From Actinoallomurus bryophytorum (GTDB lineage Bacteria; Actinomycetota; Actinomycetes; Streptosporangiales; Streptosporangiaceae), in the NCBI RefSeq assembly GCF_006716425.1, contig NZ_VFOZ01000001.1, forward strand, positions 3,348,001 through 3,412,000: a DNA stretch of 64,000 bases, given 5' to 3'. Below the pieces are notes generated by a model. The model saw only the letters and a program-made list of their open reading frames with translations, had not been told where the DNA came from and ran no database searches. This document shows positions 50,504 to 60,112 of the stretch, in pieces. Made by a program: the position numbers and the translations under genes. Every line of letters starts with the position of its first letter. The stretch's first letter is position 1.

Positions 50504-50586
50504 GGGCGAGTGGCGGAACGGCAGACGCGCACGGTTCAGGTCCGTGTGTCCGAAAGGATGTGAGGGTTCAAATCCCTCCTCGCCCA
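50504..50586 (+). tRNA. tRNA-Leu (anticodon CAG)
   Basis: 83-base tRNA. Acceptor arms GGGCGAG (50504-50510) and CTCGCCC (50579-50585) pair perfectly, followed by discriminator A. The anticodon arm is CACGG-TTCAGGT-CCGTG with CAG in positions 34-36, reading CUG codons. A long class II variable arm and the T-arm GAGGGTTCAAATCCCTC complete it. CCA is not encoded. The same tRNA follows fhaA in many actinomycetes. Its 3' flank is duplicated at 56449. Confidence 0.95.
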
Positions 50587-50816
50587 CGCGGGGGCACCGA
50601 CGAAAGTAGCCCCCTCAGAGTGTCGAAACAGCCCCCCCGCAGCAAGCGAGGGGGCTGTTTTCTTTGATGAAGGGCCAGCTTTCTGTGACTCAGGATGCTG
50701 AAGGGCCGGGTGGCTGTGGTGCTACCGGCCCTTCAGTCCGTTTTGTGGCCTTGGTGGGACAAGAGTGATCTACGTTACTCAGGCGGCAGGTGGGTCGATG
50801 TGTCCTGTCGGGGTCC
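50582..50816 (+). repeat. tRNA-Leu flank direct repeat, copy A
   Basis: Starts inside the last five bases of the tRNA (GCCCA) and aligns by eye over about 235 bases with 56449-56684. The shared parts are GCCCACGCGGGGGCACCGAC, CTCAGAGTGTCGAA, the hairpin terminator, TGACTCAGGATGCTGAAG, AAGAGTGAT and GTTACTC-GGCGGC. In both copies the far end encodes, on the minus strand, the last residues of the same protein type (here T-P-T-G-H-I-D-P-P-A-A-stop). Confidence 0.85.
50627..50663 (+). terminator. tRNA-Leu terminator
   Basis: AACAGCCCCC..CGC pairs with GCG..GGGGGCTGTT across an AGCAA loop and is followed by TTTTCTTT. It lies 41 bases after the tRNA end. Confidence 0.9.
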
Positions 50817-51151: not shown

Positions 51152-51579
51152 CTCGTCTCGTCCGGCGAAGCGGTCCGGCAGGGTCGGACACGAGCCGCCG
51201 TCGGACTCAGGCCATGACAACACCGCGCGTTAGCTCCTTGACCTCGCGAACACGACGATCGTGCCGGGCCGGTCGCGACCGAGCCCCTGCCCCATATCTC
51301 GGTGTACGCCCATGCCTCTCTTGCGGGTAGAGAGGTGCCGAGGTGGGAGTTCTTCGCCGCTGCGCGCCGCAGAACGGGCGCGACGCCCCCCGCCGTGCGA
51401 CGCTCGGAGGCGCTGACCGCTCCGGCAACTGGCCTACCACCGCCCGACGCCATGCTCGCCGACGCCATGCTCGCCGACGTCACGCGCGTCGGCATCGTGC
51501 GCGGGGCTCGCGCGCGTACGGGTCCCGGTGGCGACGGCGAGCGCGGCCGCGATCGTGCCGGCCAGGGTCGTGCGTGCGG

Positions 51580-51744
51580 GCACGTCGTGTCGGCTCCGCG
51601 TACGAACAGGACGGCCTGTCCCTGGACGCCGCGCTGGCCAATGAGTGGCGCCAAGGCGAGGTGGCGCTGGAGGCGGAGGCCCGTAAGGGCGCCACCCGTT
51701 TCACCCGAGGCACCGGCCGTCACGGCGACTTCGACGCGACCTGA
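51580..51744 (+). pseudogene. 3' remnant of an enoyl-CoA hydratase-like gene
   Basis: In the gene-free stretch 51152-51977 the plus strand keeps a coding-like end, SAYEQDGLSLDAALANEWRQ, then GEVALEAEARKGATRFTRGT and GRHGDFDAT-stop. The pattern (L.LD.AL.NEWR.G...L...A..GA.RF..G.GRHG.F) is the usual C-terminus of actinobacterial crotonase/enoyl-CoA hydratases. The preceding sequence does not keep the hydratase core in any frame, so this is a decayed fragment. Other open frames in the same stretch are not convincing. Confidence 0.45.
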
Positions 51745-51977
51745 CGCACGAACGACCAAGCCTCGCGCTCCCCACCGCCTCCGGATCTTGAAGCGGACGT
51801 AGGGGTGAGTTGAGGGTTTTCCCTGATGTGTCGCACGCGGCCCGAGCCGAATATGAGGTCGCCATCGCGGCGTCCCTGAGATGACACCAGTGGTGTCCGA
51901 TCCAGTGGCAACGCATGGCCATCGGGGCCGGTCGACGGCCGGTTCAGCATGCGGACGGTGCGGAGAAGGGACGTCGC

Positions 51978-54900
51978 GTGATCATCACTGTTACGAAGGA
52001 CTACCGGCTGAGGGCCCGGGAGAACGTCATCCACTGGAAGGCGGTACCGAGCGAGGTTCCCGTCGTCTCCGTCGCCGTGCTCGCCAACGGCACGTTCGTC
52101 GCGGCCGGGAGTGACGGCAGGCTGTACACGCGTGCCACGCTGTCGACCGAGTGGCAGCGGGTCCCCGTTCCCCCCGACGAGAACTTGACGGTGCAGTCGG
52201 TGGGAGCGCTGCCGGACGGCGATGTCGTGGGCGTGGACAGCGGCTCCAAGAAGCTCTGCTACAAGGACGACGGTTTCGGCGCGGCCTGGAAGATCAACAG
52301 CAGGGACCGGACCGATATCTCGCTGCTGAACGTGGCGGCCGGAGCCTCCGGAAAGATCTACGGGATCGACTACGACAAACAGTACGTCTACCAGCGGGAC
52401 GGGATCGACGGCTCCTGGAGCCTCGTCTCGGACAACGAGTCCATGCACTCGGTGGCGGAACTCCCCGACGGCAGGCTCATCGGGATCGACGAGTACGGTC
52501 AGGTGCTGGTCCTCGGCCTGGACAAGCGCTGGGCGCCACTCCCGGTCGGCGGGCCCGGCGGCGGGCATTCCACGCGCGACATGACGGCGCTGCCGGACGG
52601 CGGGATCCTGATCGTGGGTGAGGGCGGCGGCCTTTTCCACTGCCCGCGGCTACCGGCGATCGGCTGGCGGCCGATGGGCCTGGGGATGCCGTTGCGGGCG
52701 GTCACCGCGCTGCCGGACGGCACCTTCATCGGTGTCGACACCGATGGATACCTCCACCAGAACACCGGGCGCACCGCGACGTCCTGGCAGAAGATGTCCT
52801 ACCCCCACCCGCTGCTGGCGGTCACCGCGACGGACCGGCTCATCGGCGTCGGCGCGGACAAGTGGGTCTACCAGTGGGACGATCTGGGCGCCGCTCCCCT
52901 CATGTGGGAGACGAGCCGGGGGGTCCGCAGCGTCACCGTCCTGCCGGACAAGAGCGTCATCGGTGTCTCCGACGATTATTTGAGCGATCCGGACTACCAG
53001 CTTCACGTACGAACCTGGAAGAAGAACACCGACCGGCCAGGCCATATGTGGCTGTGGAACCCCGTGGGTAGGGACCCGGTGGACGTGCAGGCGGTGACGA
53101 GCCTGCCGGACGGCCGGCTCGTGGCCGCCGGCACGGACAAGCGGCTCTACGTCCGGGACGGTGTCTCCGGCACCTGGCAGGAGGTGCCCGGCGGAGGCGG
53201 GGTGACCTGGGTCTCCGCGTTGCCGGACGGCTCCCTGCTCGGTGTCGGCGAGGACCAGCAGGCGTACGTCTGGCCGGACTTCCAGCCGCCCACGTGGTGG
53301 ACGAGGCCGCTCCGCGACGGGCTCGAGCTGCGGGCCCTGTCAGCGGGCCCGGGCGGGACCCTGCTCGGCGTGTCCCAGACCGGGCGGCTGTGCCTGATCG
53401 ACAAGACCACCGGTGACTGGACCGACGTGTCCGGCGGAGTCGAGCTTCTCGACGTGACGACGATGGCCGACGGCACCATCCTCGGCGTCACGAGCGGAGT
53501 CGTCGACAATCTCATGACCCGGGCCTCCCTGAACGACCCCTGGCTGCCGGTTCGTAGCGACAGCGCGATCAAGGCCGTGACGACGATGCCGGACGGCTCC
53601 CTGCTCGGCATCGGCTACACCGACTGGCTTTGCACGAGGGCCGACCTGGACCTGGGGAGTTATTGGCATCTGGTCCCCAACAGCGGCACGGTCGTCTCGG
53701 TGAGCGTCCTCACCGACGGCACGATCCTGGCGGTCGGCACGGACGGCAAGCTCTACACGAGGACCAGTCTCGTCGGCACCTGGCAGGTGGTGGCCGACAC
53801 GAACACCGCGACCGGGAACGACCTGATGTCCGCCGTGGCGGTGCTGCCCGACGATCTTCTTCGACCCACCGACGGCTGGCCACTCCCCGTCTCGAGGAGG
53901 CCCGAGGACTGGCTGCTGGAGTTCACCGCCACCGACGTGCTGGCCGACGACGGAGACGGCCGGCCGTGGGGGGACGGCACGGCCATGGCCCGGCGCGCCT
54001 GGACTGGTGGCATGCCATGGGACCACGGGTGCATGGTCACTCCCATGGTCGGCGGCTTCGACACCATGGGCGCGATCCGGGAGGCGTTCGAGGCCGCCAT
54101 CGCCGAGGCCCGCAGGCAGTCCGCCGAAGGCGTCCCTCCCGGCGAGCGCGGCCACGTCTACATCGCGGACTGGCTCCTCAACGGCCTGCGGGACCTTTCG
54201 GAGACGAACTCCTGGGGAGGCAGGCGGTGGGACGTCAAGACCCAGCCGGAAAAGGACCAGACCGCGCTCGGCCTGATCCTGCGGATGATGTCCGCGGGGA
54301 TCGTCGTACGGATCATGCTGTGGATGCCGACCAGCGCCCAGGCCACACAGCTCGGGCCGCACGCCGCCGAACACTGGAACCTGGCCGCGGCCATCCAGGA
54401 CCACAACGCCCAGCTGACGGCCAGATGGAATCCGACGACGCCTCTCGGAGTCGTGGCGCTGGACCTGCGCACCGCGTACTCGACCAACTCGCCCACGGTC
54501 GCGTCACTGCACCAGAAGATGGTCGCCGTACGCGTCGGGTCGGTGAACGTCGGGTTCTGCGGAGGCGTCGACCTGGCCTTCACCCGGCGTGACTTCGGCA
54601 GCCACGGCCGTACGGCGCTCGGCGACTGGCAGTCGGGAAGCGGCTCGCCGCCGGCGGCCGGCGGCTGGCCGCGGCAGGCCTCCCTGCCGCCGAGCGGTTA
54701 CCCGGCCTATCCCTACGATCCGGCCGACAAGGTCAACAACGAGCCCTTCCCCGAGGACCTGCCCGGCGTCGCCTACGGCGGCTTCAACCGCCACTGGCAC
54801 GACCAGCACCTGAAACTCGAAGGACCCGTGGTCGCCTCGCTGGAGGACCAGTTCGCCGAACGGTGGATCATCAGCCCGAACGAGAGGCAGGGCACGTCCA

Positions 54901-55928
54901 CGATCGGCAGGGTCTACCTGTTCGACCGGACGAGCACGATCGGCCAGCGGAACCAGGTGCAGCTCACCGCGGTCACGTTCAACACCGGGGGCCAGGCGGA
55001 ACTGATCCCGCTGCCGAAGACCCGGCCGGTGGATCCGGTGAGCGGGGGGGTCGTGCAGATGTGGCGGACCATCCCGATGTACCCCACACGCGTCTTCGGT
55101 CCGTTCACCCGAGGCGAGTTCACCGTCATGGCGGGTGTGGCCAAGGCCGTCGCCCAGGCGCGTCACCTCATCACGATCTGGGACCAGTACTTCTGGAGCA
55201 CGCCACTGGCGAAACTGCTCGCGGTCCGACTCAACACGTGCCCGACGCTACGGCTGCTGATCGTGCTGCCCCCGTACGGGACCAGCAACCCCGACAAGGA
55301 ACTCGGCCTGCGCCGGACCGCGATGCAAGCACTGTGGAACGACCTCGCGCCGGCGAACCGGTCCCGCGTGCTCGTCCTCAACATGTGGGATGAGGCCTCC
55401 GGCGTGGGCGTCTACGTCCACGACAAGGTGCAGACCTATGACGACGCCCTGCTCGTCTGCGGATCCGCCAACATGAACCGGCGATCGCTTGAGAACGACG
55501 CCGAACTCGACTGCGCGGTGCTGGATCCGCCGACCGTGCGCGGCCATCTCGCCCGCCTTTACGCCGGCCTGGCCGGCCAGGCGTGGACCGACTTCGGACC
55601 TGACTGGTTCACACGGTACTGGACGGAATTCGCCCTTACCGACAACGACTTCACCTGGGCCGGCAAGTGGTTCATCACAGATCCGTTCTTCAGGCCGAAT
55701 AATGCCATCGGCAGCCCGACACTGCCGAACGGGACGAAGATCCCGACCTCTGGCGACTGGACCAAGCCCGACTGGATCTTCGACCCGACCTGTTTCGACT
55801 CCGACCTCTCCCAGCCCGACCCCGCCCTGCCCGACCCCGCGATGGCCGGACGACTGGACGGGGTGACGTACCTGATCGAGCGCTACCACAAGGGCAGGAC
55901 ATGGCCGCGCCGGGTCCCCCAGCACTGA
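51978..55928 (+). CDS. Beta-propeller plus phospholipase D-like fusion protein
   Basis: 1316 residues from GTG 51978, with GGAGAAGGGA upstream. Residues 1 to about 640 hold fourteen repeats of 40-45 residues built on L-P-D-G-x-x-x-G-V-x-x-D-G-x-L-Y (examples ALPDGTFIGVDTDGYLHQN, SLPDGRLVAAGTDKRLYVRD, VLTDGTILAVGTDGKLYTR), enough for two seven-bladed propellers. The rest is a phospholipase D-superfamily region. Its C-terminal HKD motif is intact (His1148, Lys1150, Asp1155 in HDKVQTYDDALLVCGSANMN). The first motif (His845, Lys847 in HQKMVAVRVG) has Arg852 in place of Asp. No signal peptide or membrane span is seen. It may hydrolyse phosphodiesters (lipid or nucleic acid) and use the propellers for binding. 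It is alone in an accessory segment. Confidence 0.85.
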   Translation: MIITVTKDYRLRARENVIHWKAVPSEVPVVSVAVLANGTFVAAGSDGRLYTRATLSTEWQRVPVPPDENLTVQSVGALPDGDVVGVDSGSKKLCYKDDGFGAAWKINSRDRTDISLLNVAAGASGKIYGIDYDKQYVYQRDGIDGSWSLVSDNESMHSVAELPDGRLIGIDEYGQVLVLGLDKRWAPLPVGGPGGGHSTRDMTALPDGGILIVGEGGGLFHCPRLPAIGWRPMGLGMPLRAVTALPDGTFIGVDTDGYLHQNTGRTATSWQKMSYPHPLLAVTATDRLIGVGADKWVYQWDDLGAAPLMWETSRGVRSVTVLPDKSVIGVSDDYLSDPDYQLHVRTWKKNTDRPGHMWLWNPVGRDPVDVQAVTSLPDGRLVAAGTDKRLYVRDGVSGTWQEVPGGGGVTWVSALPDGSLLGVGEDQQAYVWPDFQPPTWWTRPLRDGLELRALSAGPGGTLLGVSQTGRLCLIDKTTGDWTDVSGGVELLDVTTMADGTILGVTSGVVDNLMTRASLNDPWLPVRSDSAIKAVTTMPDGSLLGIGYTDWLCTRADLDLGSYWHLVPNSGTVVSVSVLTDGTILAVGTDGKLYTRTSLVGTWQVVADTNTATGNDLMSAVAVLPDDLLRPTDGWPLPVSRRPEDWLLEFTATDVLADDGDGRPWGDGTAMARRAWTGGMPWDHGCMVTPMVGGFDTMGAIREAFEAAIAEARRQSAEGVPPGERGHVYIADWLLNGLRDLSETNSWGGRRWDVKTQPEKDQTALGLILRMMSAGIVVRIMLWMPTSAQATQLGPHAAEHWNLAAAIQDHNAQLTARWNPTTPLGVVALDLRTAYSTNSPTVASLHQKMVAVRVGSVNVGFCGGVDLAFTRRDFGSHGRTALGDWQSGSGSPPAAGGWPRQASLPPSGYPAYPYDPADKVNNEPFPEDLPGVAYGGFNRHWHDQHLKLEGPVVASLEDQFAERWIISPNERQGTSTIGRVYLFDRTSTIGQRNQVQLTAVTFNTGGQAELIPLPKTRPVDPVSGGVVQMWRTIPMYPTRVFGPFTRGEFTVMAGVAKAVAQARHLITIWDQYFWSTPLAKLLAVRLNTCPTLRLLIVLPPYGTSNPDKELGLRRTAMQALWNDLAPANRSRVLVLNMWDEASGVGVYVHDKVQTYDDALLVCGSANMNRRSLENDAELDCAVLDPPTVRGHLARLYAGLAGQAWTDFGPDWFTRYWTEFALTDNDFTWAGKWFITDPFFRPNNAIGSPTLPNGTKIPTSGDWTKPDWIFDPTCFDSDLSQPDPALPDPAMAGRLDGVTYLIERYHKGRTWPRRVPQH

Positions 55929-56448
55929 CCGGCCTCAAAGGACGGTGCCTCCTGAGCCGGAGGTGACGCACCGGGCGGACGGCTTGACGTCACAGACGGC
56001 GGAACCCTCGACAGACCGAGGCCCGCCAGCGGGCGCGCCGCGACCTCGGCGCCCGGTCGTGCCCTGCCAGACGCGCCGCCAGGACGGCCGCCAGCCCCTC
56101 CTGGGGAGCGGTGACCTCGACGCCCGGCGGGACCGAGCCCGCGCGCCACTCGGCCACCGACAGGCCGGCAAGTGGCGGACCGGTCGGTGTTCACGCCGCG
56201 CGACCGGCCTCCCAGCGGCATGCCGGGGAGGATGACGCCAGGGCCTCGGCCGTGCGCCGGAGCGAGGGGGAGTCCGGCGGCCGCCGACACGTCGGTGTGC
56301 TGCAGGTCGCCACCTAGATCGCACGCGGCTGACCGCCACCGGATCGGTGGCGTCCACCGACGAACCTCACTGGAAGATGATCTTCACCATGGTGGAATCA
56401 CCATCCTGGCCCCGCTGCCCCGCAGCTGGTCAGGGAGTTTCGTCGGTG

Positions 56449-56684
56449 GCCCACGCGGGGGCACCGACGGAAGTTGCCCTCCCTCAGAGTGTCGAAGCAG
56501 CCCCCGAGCGGCAAGCGCGGGGGCTGTTTTCTTTGATGTGAAACAAGGTTTCCGTGACTCAGGATGCTGAAGAGCCGTTCAGCTGTGGCGTTACCGGCAC
56601 TTGAGTCCGTTTCGCGTTTGTGGTGAGGCAAGAGTGATTTGCGTTACTCGGGCGGCGGGTGGTCGATGCGGCCCACCGGGGTCC
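56449..56684 (+). repeat. tRNA-Leu flank direct repeat, copy B
   Basis: Begins GCCCACGCGGGGGCACCGAC, exactly the sequence spanning the tRNA-Leu 3' terminus at 50582, although no tRNA precedes it here. It continues through a second version of the terminator and into the last codons of the gene at 56644. The 520 bases before it (55929-56448) contain no gene I can support; scattered coding-like fragments there are probably decayed. Confidence 0.85.
56498..56530 (+). terminator. Copy of the tRNA-Leu terminator
   Basis: CAGCCCCC (56498-56505) and GGGGGCTG (56519-56526) followed by TTTTCTTT. It is the counterpart of the terminator at 50627 in the duplicated flank. No plus-strand gene ends just before it. 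Confidence 0.8.
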
Positions 56685-59158: not shown

Positions 59159-60112
59159 TCATCGGGGATCCTCTTGCGGCGGGCCATCGCGGTCCGGGGT
59201 GAGTGCGGCGCAGGCTTCTCTCAGGCGGTTCTCGATCCAGGTCCGTTCGCTGCCCTCGGCCCGGCGGGTGTGGGCGTACTCCAGGGCCAAGGGGACGGCC
59301 TTGATGTCGACTCCTGTGCCGGTGAGGGTGGCGAGGAAGGCCAGGCCGAGATCGTTCCTCAGGGTCTCGTCCCTGGCGTAGTCGTCGATGAGGTCACCCA
59401 GGTCGTACAGGATCCGGCCGTCGACTCCGTGGAAGACATGGGCCGAGTGGCCCGCCACCAGGGTCGCTCCGGCCTCGAGAAGGCTCGCTGCCGACTCTCT
59501 TATGTACGGGAGCGGCTCCGTCGTCATGTTGGGACCCCAGTGCGGAGTCACCAGTACGACGTCGTACCTGGCACTCAGGCCCTGGATCTGGCTGGTCAGC
59601 CATGCGGGGACGCCGTCGTTCAGCGGGACGTACGCGACTCCCGGGGTGTCCTCGGTCGCGGCGTAGTCCGCCGGGTGGTCGGTGAGGCCGACGACGGCGA
59701 CGGTCGTACCGCCGGCCTTCAGGACGGCGGGTGTCCGCGCCTCTGCCTGGTTCCTCCCCGCACCCACGGTCTGGATTCCGGCGCGCCTCAGGTGGTCGAG
59801 GGTGTCGGACAGGGCGTCGTGGCCGTAGTCCAGCGCGTGGTTGTTGGCCAGGGTCACGCAGTCGACGCCCAGGGTGGTCAGCGCGGCCACGGCCGCCGGC
59901 GGGGCGCGGAAGTGGAACGGCCTTCCTGGTGCGTCCCAGGGCCGGCCGCGGTCGGAGACGCAGCACTCGAGGTTCAGGACCCGTAGGTCCGCCTCGGCGA
60001 AGGCGCGGCGGATCCCGGGGTCGAACAGGTCGTACGGGCCGCGCGCCGCGATCTCCTCGGCGACGCCGCGACCCAGCATCGTGTCGCCGCCGAGGGCGAT
60101 GGTGACGGTCAT
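59159..60112 (-). CDS. CapA family (PGA_cap) metallophosphatase-fold protein
   Basis: 317 residues. Metal-ligand motifs of the CapA/PgsA fold are present in order: IALGGDTMLGRGV (5-17), VLNLECCVSD, TLANNHALDYG, GLTDHP, VVLVTPHWGPNM and VAGHSAHVFHGV. Bacillus CapA assists poly-gamma-glutamate export; stand-alone actinobacterial homologues are of unknown function. It has no signal peptide, unlike Bacillus CapA, so it may act in the cytoplasm. ATG 60112 follows GAGG. It is convergent with the YbaB gene. Confidence 0.88.
   Translation of the reverse strand: MTVTIALGGDTMLGRGVAEEIAARGPYDLFDPGIRRAFAEADLRVLNLECCVSDRGRPWDAPGRPFHFRAPPAAVAALTTLGVDCVTLANNHALDYGHDALSDTLDHLRRAGIQTVGAGRNQAEARTPAVLKAGGTTVAVVGLTDHPADYAATEDTPGVAYVPLNDGVPAWLTSQIQGLSARYDVVLVTPHWGPNMTTEPLPYIRESAASLLEAGATLVAGHSAHVFHGVDGRILYDLGDLIDDYARDETLRNDLGLAFLATLTGTGVDIKAVPLALEYAHTRRAEGSERTWIENRLREACAALTPDRDGPPQEDPR

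Follow-up and report, generated by a model that had tools for sequence, protein, structure and literature searches.

A rare tectonin-repeat phospholipase D fusion encoded beside a tRNA-Leu gene in Actinoallomurus bryophytorum

The window analysed here is a 64,000-nucleotide stretch of the Actinoallomurus bryophytorum genome (contig NZ_VFOZ01000001.1, forward-strand positions 3,348,001 to 3,412,000; coordinates below are window positions unless a locus is named). It carries a gene that joins a series of tectonin-type propeller repeats to a phospholipase D (PLD) half. The gene is a single uninterrupted frame at 51978..55928 (+) encoding 1316 amino acids, and its third positions are of coding type (GC 0.65/0.50/0.90 at the three codon positions). 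The start codon is GTG at 51978, with GGAGAAGG 8 nt upstream, and an alternative in-frame ATG lies ahead of it at 51915. In an Actinomadura relative, the frame opens three codons ahead of a Met that aligns near the GTG start; in a Streptacidiphilus relative, the frame stays open further upstream, and its start is our own choice. The propeller-PLD protein is genuine, rare and clearly delimited, and has turned out less unusual than it first appeared. The gene and its parts are:

51978..55928, + strand: propeller-PLD fusion gene (open reading frame, translation, Pfam, phmmer)
51978..52811, + strand: first propeller ring, residues 1-278 (structure model)
52812..53066, + strand: two diverged repeats, residues 279-363, lying in neither ring, low confidence (repeats 7 and 8; model confidence)
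53067..53768, + strand: second propeller ring, residues 364-597 (structure model)
53901..55925, + strand: PLD half, residues 642-1316 (profile against the PDB, fold matches)
54510..54533, + strand: first HKD motif (HKD1) with Arg: H845, K847, R852 (sequence, family alignment)
54792..54803, + strand: HWHD, residues 939-942, corresponding to the W[HQ]D stretch in PLD1, plant PLD and PldA
55419..55442, + strand: second HKD motif (HKD2): H1148, K1150, D1155 (sequence, family alignment)

The N-terminal half is built from 14 full repeats of ~40 residues, placed by eye, flanked by a half repeat at the N-terminus (residues 1-20) and another at the C-terminal end (617-628). Twelve LPDG-like cores were observed, where 2000 shuffles gave 0.7 on average and never more than 5; self-similarity peaks at lag 40 (z 5.8, 200 shuffles). 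Pfam assigns the repeats to the Tectonin family PF19193 at E 2.2e-18, scoring 66.9 bits where the cut-off is 30. A preliminary description of this DNA had counted 14 LPDG-type repeats fused to a PLD-like region, and both the repeat count and the profile matches bear it out. It had also proposed two seven-bladed propellers, which the structure model does not return: the model, a weak one (predicted local distance difference test, pLDDT, 60.6; 3-row alignment), shows two rings whose best matches are six-bladed propellers and leaves two repeats loose, in the region of repeats 7 and 8, where pLDDT falls below 50 at residues 276-368. The top whole-length Foldseek match is a double seven-bladed protein at a template modelling score of 0.3, and a profile search of the PDB with the propeller alignment gave no match at E 1. 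The tectonin-type repeats are predicted to be lectin-like, with a glycan or lipid as ligand.

Tectonin repeats also occur in other multidomain proteins. They share one protein with an eCIS core domain in a same-genus genome (G007; L072:5580-8939, -), are joined to an NlpC/P60-like stretch, below cut-off, in G405 (L077:5371-6801, -), and are joined to FG-GAP repeats in G058 (L074:4601-7051, +), which holds two further look-alike proteins with Tectonin matches (L073 and L075 are listed alongside). Because they are combined with the eCIS core domain and the NlpC/P60-like stretch elsewhere in the bacterial family, the repeats do occur as a module linked to different domains.

The C-terminal half is related to known PLD enzymes. 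In a phmmer search it matched PLD1, plant PLD alpha 1, PldA and PLD2. Against the PDB, the family profile matched human PLD1 at E 3.9e-8 and PldA (7v53) at E 2.3e-10; of the pieces of the PldA match, only the one at HKD2 is significant by itself. A fold search with the PLD model returned PLD enzymes in all of its top 12 rows, so profile and fold, the latter from a weak model, agree on the assignment. Short GG and GS motifs follow the two HKD motifs, the W[HQ]D...GP...F..RW stretch is present, and the Actinomadura relative clears the Pfam PLDc_2 cut-off (31.2 bits). The protein is probably an enzymatically active PLD of the PLD1/PldA class, for which a phospholipid substrate is predicted.

An Asp in HKD1 is usually given as part of the PLD signature (HxKxxxxD). 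Here Asp is found in HKD2 and not in HKD1, which reads H845-Q-K847-MVAV-R852; the residues of both motifs had been correctly described. Both HxK pairs are intact (H845/K847 and H1148/K1150), the first in 8/8 family rows and the second in all seven rows that reach it, and the Arg at the HKD1 Asp position is invariant in the eight family members, the window's own protein included. Its presence in the relatives, with both His and Lys kept, marks the substitution as a family trait. The same residue prevails beyond the family. In a first sample of 24 loci scanned in forward frames, seven of eight readable HKD1 motifs carry Arg and one carries Asp (L024); L026 repeats the gene of L009, so the seven Arg readings represent six genes. 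A wider, partly overlapping sample drew on 118 genomes of the class; 28 of these matched at E 1e-30, with 34 listed matches between them. Thirty loci were read, 27 with a legible HKD1 (L111, L113 and L114 were unreadable), and this commoner actinomycete PLD family has Arg in 26/27 and Gln in 1/27, with Asp in HKD2 in 29/29 readable motifs. Asp in HKD1 therefore does not define the wider group, and the suggestion that Arg852 signals decay or an asymmetry peculiar to this protein is rejected, Arg being the rule among relatives; a re-purposed enzyme is likewise not supported. PLD catalysis is credited to the two HKD His residues (PMC8004604).

No leader peptide is evident in the 1316-residue protein by inspection, no dedicated predictor having been run. 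A hydropathy scan picked out a 12-mer from residue 27 (mean 1.84), which lies within the first blade, and a 19-mer from residue 763 in the PLD half (mean 1.88 against the usual threshold of 1.6). The earlier claim that there is no secretion signal thus stands by inspection, qualified by the second of these stretches.

Relatives are few and scattered. A scan of contigs from 84,980 species with two peptide patterns, which sets a lower bound, found at least 7 loci: in Cyanobium sp. FGCU6 (possibly a stray contig), UBA9676, two Eremiobacterota, Streptacidiphilus sp. 4-A2, Actinomadura hibisca and an Actinomycetales bin. L029 and L003 (from G036) encode an identical 710-residue protein. When the window's own repeats are turned into a blade profile, the Streptacidiphilus protein matches it at E 2e-58 and the Actinomadura protein at E 1.1e-6, the latter over two weak stretches only; 0/20 shuffled copies match at E 1. 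Pfam Tectonin matches the Streptacidiphilus protein (E 3.2e-18) and not the Actinomadura one. The propeller-PLD plan is therefore present in Streptacidiphilus and probable in Actinomadura, where the weak stretches and the missing Pfam match stop short of certainty. In the remaining five relatives, the PLD stands alone, its frame without a blade-profile match; a short unrelated frame at L034 matches at E 0.18 and is taken as noise. Catalytic residues are kept across relatives at 52-62% identity. In the Streptacidiphilus copy (L031:6585-9623), the frame is broken just before HKD2, through either pseudogenization or an assembly error. In the tree, the three rows with propellers fall on the same side of a weakly supported branch (61/79), and the topology is compatible with more than one count of fusion events.

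Within its own lineage, the gene is isolated. None of the seven other genomes of the genus has a match at E 0.001, and the window's genome is the sole match among 394 genomes of the class at E 1e-60 and among 396 of the phylum at a stringent cut-off (two candidates were scored in most genomes). The combination of propellers and PLD is rare; the enzyme type and the HKD1 Arg are ordinary. The preliminary description knew of no named family with this plan, and indeed none of the Pfam and NCBIfam matches is a curated model covering the plan as a whole, although the plan itself recurs in Streptacidiphilus and probably Actinomadura. As judged from listings, the open-licence literature searched describes no tectonin-PLD protein.

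The gene lies in an accessory segment immediately downstream of a tRNA gene, with the following features:

50504..50587, + strand: tRNA-Leu (CAG), insertion point (ARAGORN)
50582..50793, + strand: left direct-repeat copy, comprising the tRNA 3' end, a terminator-like hairpin (by eye) and flank
51550..51726, + strand: gene debris, what remains of an enoyl-CoA hydratase C-terminus (phmmer against the PDB)
56449..56662, + strand: right direct-repeat copy, 82% identical, its first 21 nt identical

The 212-bp direct repeat begins with the last bases of tRNA-Leu. A whole-genome search at E 0.001 gives two copies, the second at the far end of the segment, as in an integrative element at a tRNA gene. 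Contigs long enough for comparison were available from five of the seven other genomes of the genus (G004, whose contig ends at the gene, and G002, with no strong match, were left out); collinearity with all five stops at 50590/50591, at the 3' end of tRNA-Leu, and similarity returns near 59226-59343 in three of them, in one (L065) ~375 bp past the tRNA. Between the repeats, the propeller-PLD gene is the sole sizeable coding-type open reading frame (ORF), another having 72 codons. This sharpens the earlier remark that the gene stands alone in an accessory segment, and accessory it is. The enoyl-CoA hydratase remnant matches 3r9q at E 9.1e-5 over residues 70-128 of the frame 51343-51741, with no Pfam match. 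No integrase or recombinase was found between the repeats; four upstream ORFs have no Pfam match, and two minus-strand ORFs at 55883-56357 lay outside the scan. The diverged repeat probably stems from insertions stacked at this single tRNA gene. Past movement of the gene is likewise suggested rather than seen, since no integrase was found and base composition is unremarkable. In the genes upstream of the tRNA, Pfam identifies penicillin-binding transpeptidase, FtsW/RodA and PP2C domains and two FHA domains. Four other genomes carry different cargo downstream of the same tRNA-Leu (L066-L069); among the ten proteins scanned are oxidoreductases, a methyltransferase, sensor kinases, an ABC ATPase, an AMP-binding enzyme, alpha/beta hydrolases and a beta-lactamase-family hydrolase.

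Partner genes were sought by all-against-all BLASTP of six-frame ORFs of at least 80 codons across the carrier loci. Outside the PLD gene and its shadow frames, none is common across lineages, apart from a weak match (30%) between regulator-like ORFs of L029 and L032; the Eremiobacterota loci L030 and L034 have several ORFs in common, far from the PLD. Alpha/beta hydrolases with weak DUF7379 matches lie near two PLD-only copies (L030:5877-7340, +; L029:5430-7058, -). As a shared lipase neighbour, this lead was dropped, the two hydrolases matching each other at E 0.16, which is not significant. Another neighbour, at L003, has no Pfam match. PADLOC reported three weak DrmC matches, all on the HKD2 stretch (best E 0.0024), and none of ten neighbours scanned with Pfam is a defence-like gene or DISARM partner. 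Phage records contain no match, and two pattern-based scans of viral contigs yielded no confirmed relative. Seventeen plasmid records match the PLD half distantly, none over 80% of it, and none matches the propeller half; on these records, an origin as a phage or plasmid gene is rejected. The sheath family PF04984 of contractile injection systems has no match at E 0.001 in the window's genome (95.8% complete) or in G560 and G563, and is matched in five of eight carrying genomes, four of them above cut-off. Lacking, in what was scanned, a link to defence genes, a sheath in this host, phages, close plasmids or a shared partner, the gene is best regarded as a one-gene device.

The reading we prefer, at even chances when taken as a whole, is that of a probably active PLD of this class, without an evident leader, docked by its propellers and carried as single-gene cargo at tRNA-Leu. 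The lectin-like, tectonin-type propellers would hold the PLD on a glycan- or lipid-bearing surface, where it would cleave or transfer phospholipid head groups through a phosphohistidine step, and the gene would travel as single-gene accessory cargo at the tRNA-Leu insertion site. The most economical mechanism would be for the repeats to dock the protein and for the PLD to carry out the head-group chemistry. Several points weigh against it. Confidence in the PLD model is low (pLDDT 47.3; predicted template modelling score 0.47), the fold matches have large root-mean-square deviations, and the Pfam PLDc_2 match is below cut-off (23 against 27 bits). The PLD-superfamily enzyme may be a nuclease or synthase, and the propellers may bind proteins instead. 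The hydrophobic 19-mer leaves room for a membrane-buried stretch, and a secretion route was not found. The GC of the segment (0.66-0.69, against 0.63-0.74 across the window) gives no compositional sign of foreign origin. As to its use, the fungal defence lectins, which are cytoplasmic (PMC13324453, PMC6272156), suggest by analogy one possible route, storage in the cell and action on foreign membranes after lysis; deployment against predators or competitors would then be a plausible guess. A bolder version, which we consider unlikely, has a mobile bacterial chimerolectin: a stored, lectin-guided PLD released on lysis or ingestion against predator or rival membranes, encoded by a one-gene cassette moving at tRNA genes, with propellers gained or lost to switch target.

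Among the rivals, intracellular lipid remodelling fares best, though we still think it improbable. The propellers would dock the PLD on a host membrane protein or stored lipid, yielding phosphatidic acid or exchanged phospholipids that serve the cell itself, in keeping with the lack of an evident leader, the existence of PLD-only relatives, and the alpha/beta-hydrolase genes near two of five PLD-only copies, not clearly related to each other. Such a role sits poorly with a gene so rare and patchy, without a match in the seven other genomes of the genus, matched in its own genome alone among the 394 of the class, and located in an insertion site. An anti-phage effector, in which infection, sensed through the propellers, would set the PLD on membrane or nucleic acid, is less probable again. 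The accessory site beside a tRNA gene, the large, cytoplasmic-looking protein and the DrmC matches speak for a defence role, but those matches are weak and confined to the HKD2 stretch, none of the ten neighbours scanned is defence-like, no partner recurs across lineages, and the ten proteins from the same site in four other genomes are metabolic, transport and signalling proteins. A dead or decaying insert, a pseudo-enzyme carried by chance, would explain the upstream gene debris and the broken Streptacidiphilus frame; 1316 open codons with coding-type third positions and catalytic residues kept among relatives make it very improbable. Cargo of a contractile injection system is the least likely and is rejected for this host: PldA, a type VI effector, is the closest solved relative by profile, a same-genus genome encodes the eCIS_core and Tectonin protein and five carrying genomes match the sheath family, but those matches may be prophages, the window's genome, G560 and G563 have none, and the propeller-PLD protein contains no eCIS core domain at E 1.

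If the propellers do aim the PLD, the protein offers a natural modular means of steering a phospholipase towards particular surfaces, and targeting can be compared directly between relatives that have propellers and relatives that lack them. More generally, a large actinomycete PLD group carries Arg where the first HKD motif normally has Asp.

Set beside known systems, the PLD half is like PLD1/PLD2, plant PLD alpha and Pseudomonas PldA in its HKD pair, the GG/GS motifs, the W[HQ]D...GP...F..RW stretch and the fold matches; its family differs from them by the HKD1 Arg and the N-terminal signature GDGRPWGDGTAM, and the window protein by the tectonin repeats in front. DrmC, the PLD-like protein of DISARM, is matched weakly on the HKD2 stretch, with no partner genes among the ten neighbours. 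The common actinomycete PLD family HHQK...R (L014 and kin) shares both the Arg for Asp and the WHD motif, but identity is mostly 34-40% over ~25-40% of the PLD half, the family of the window's protein is separate in the tree (three outgroup rows), and the member scanned, L004, has PLD domains only. Fungal chimerolectins such as MOA and CCTX2 also join a lectin part to another domain (PMC13324453, PMC6272156), with other folds and other enzymes, so that the likeness is one of plan only. The Tectonin family PF19193, of which fungal tectonin 2 is an example, is matched above the Pfam cut-off, and the modelled rings resemble six-bladed propellers, whereas the window protein has 14 repeats fused to an enzyme, with glycan binding putative.

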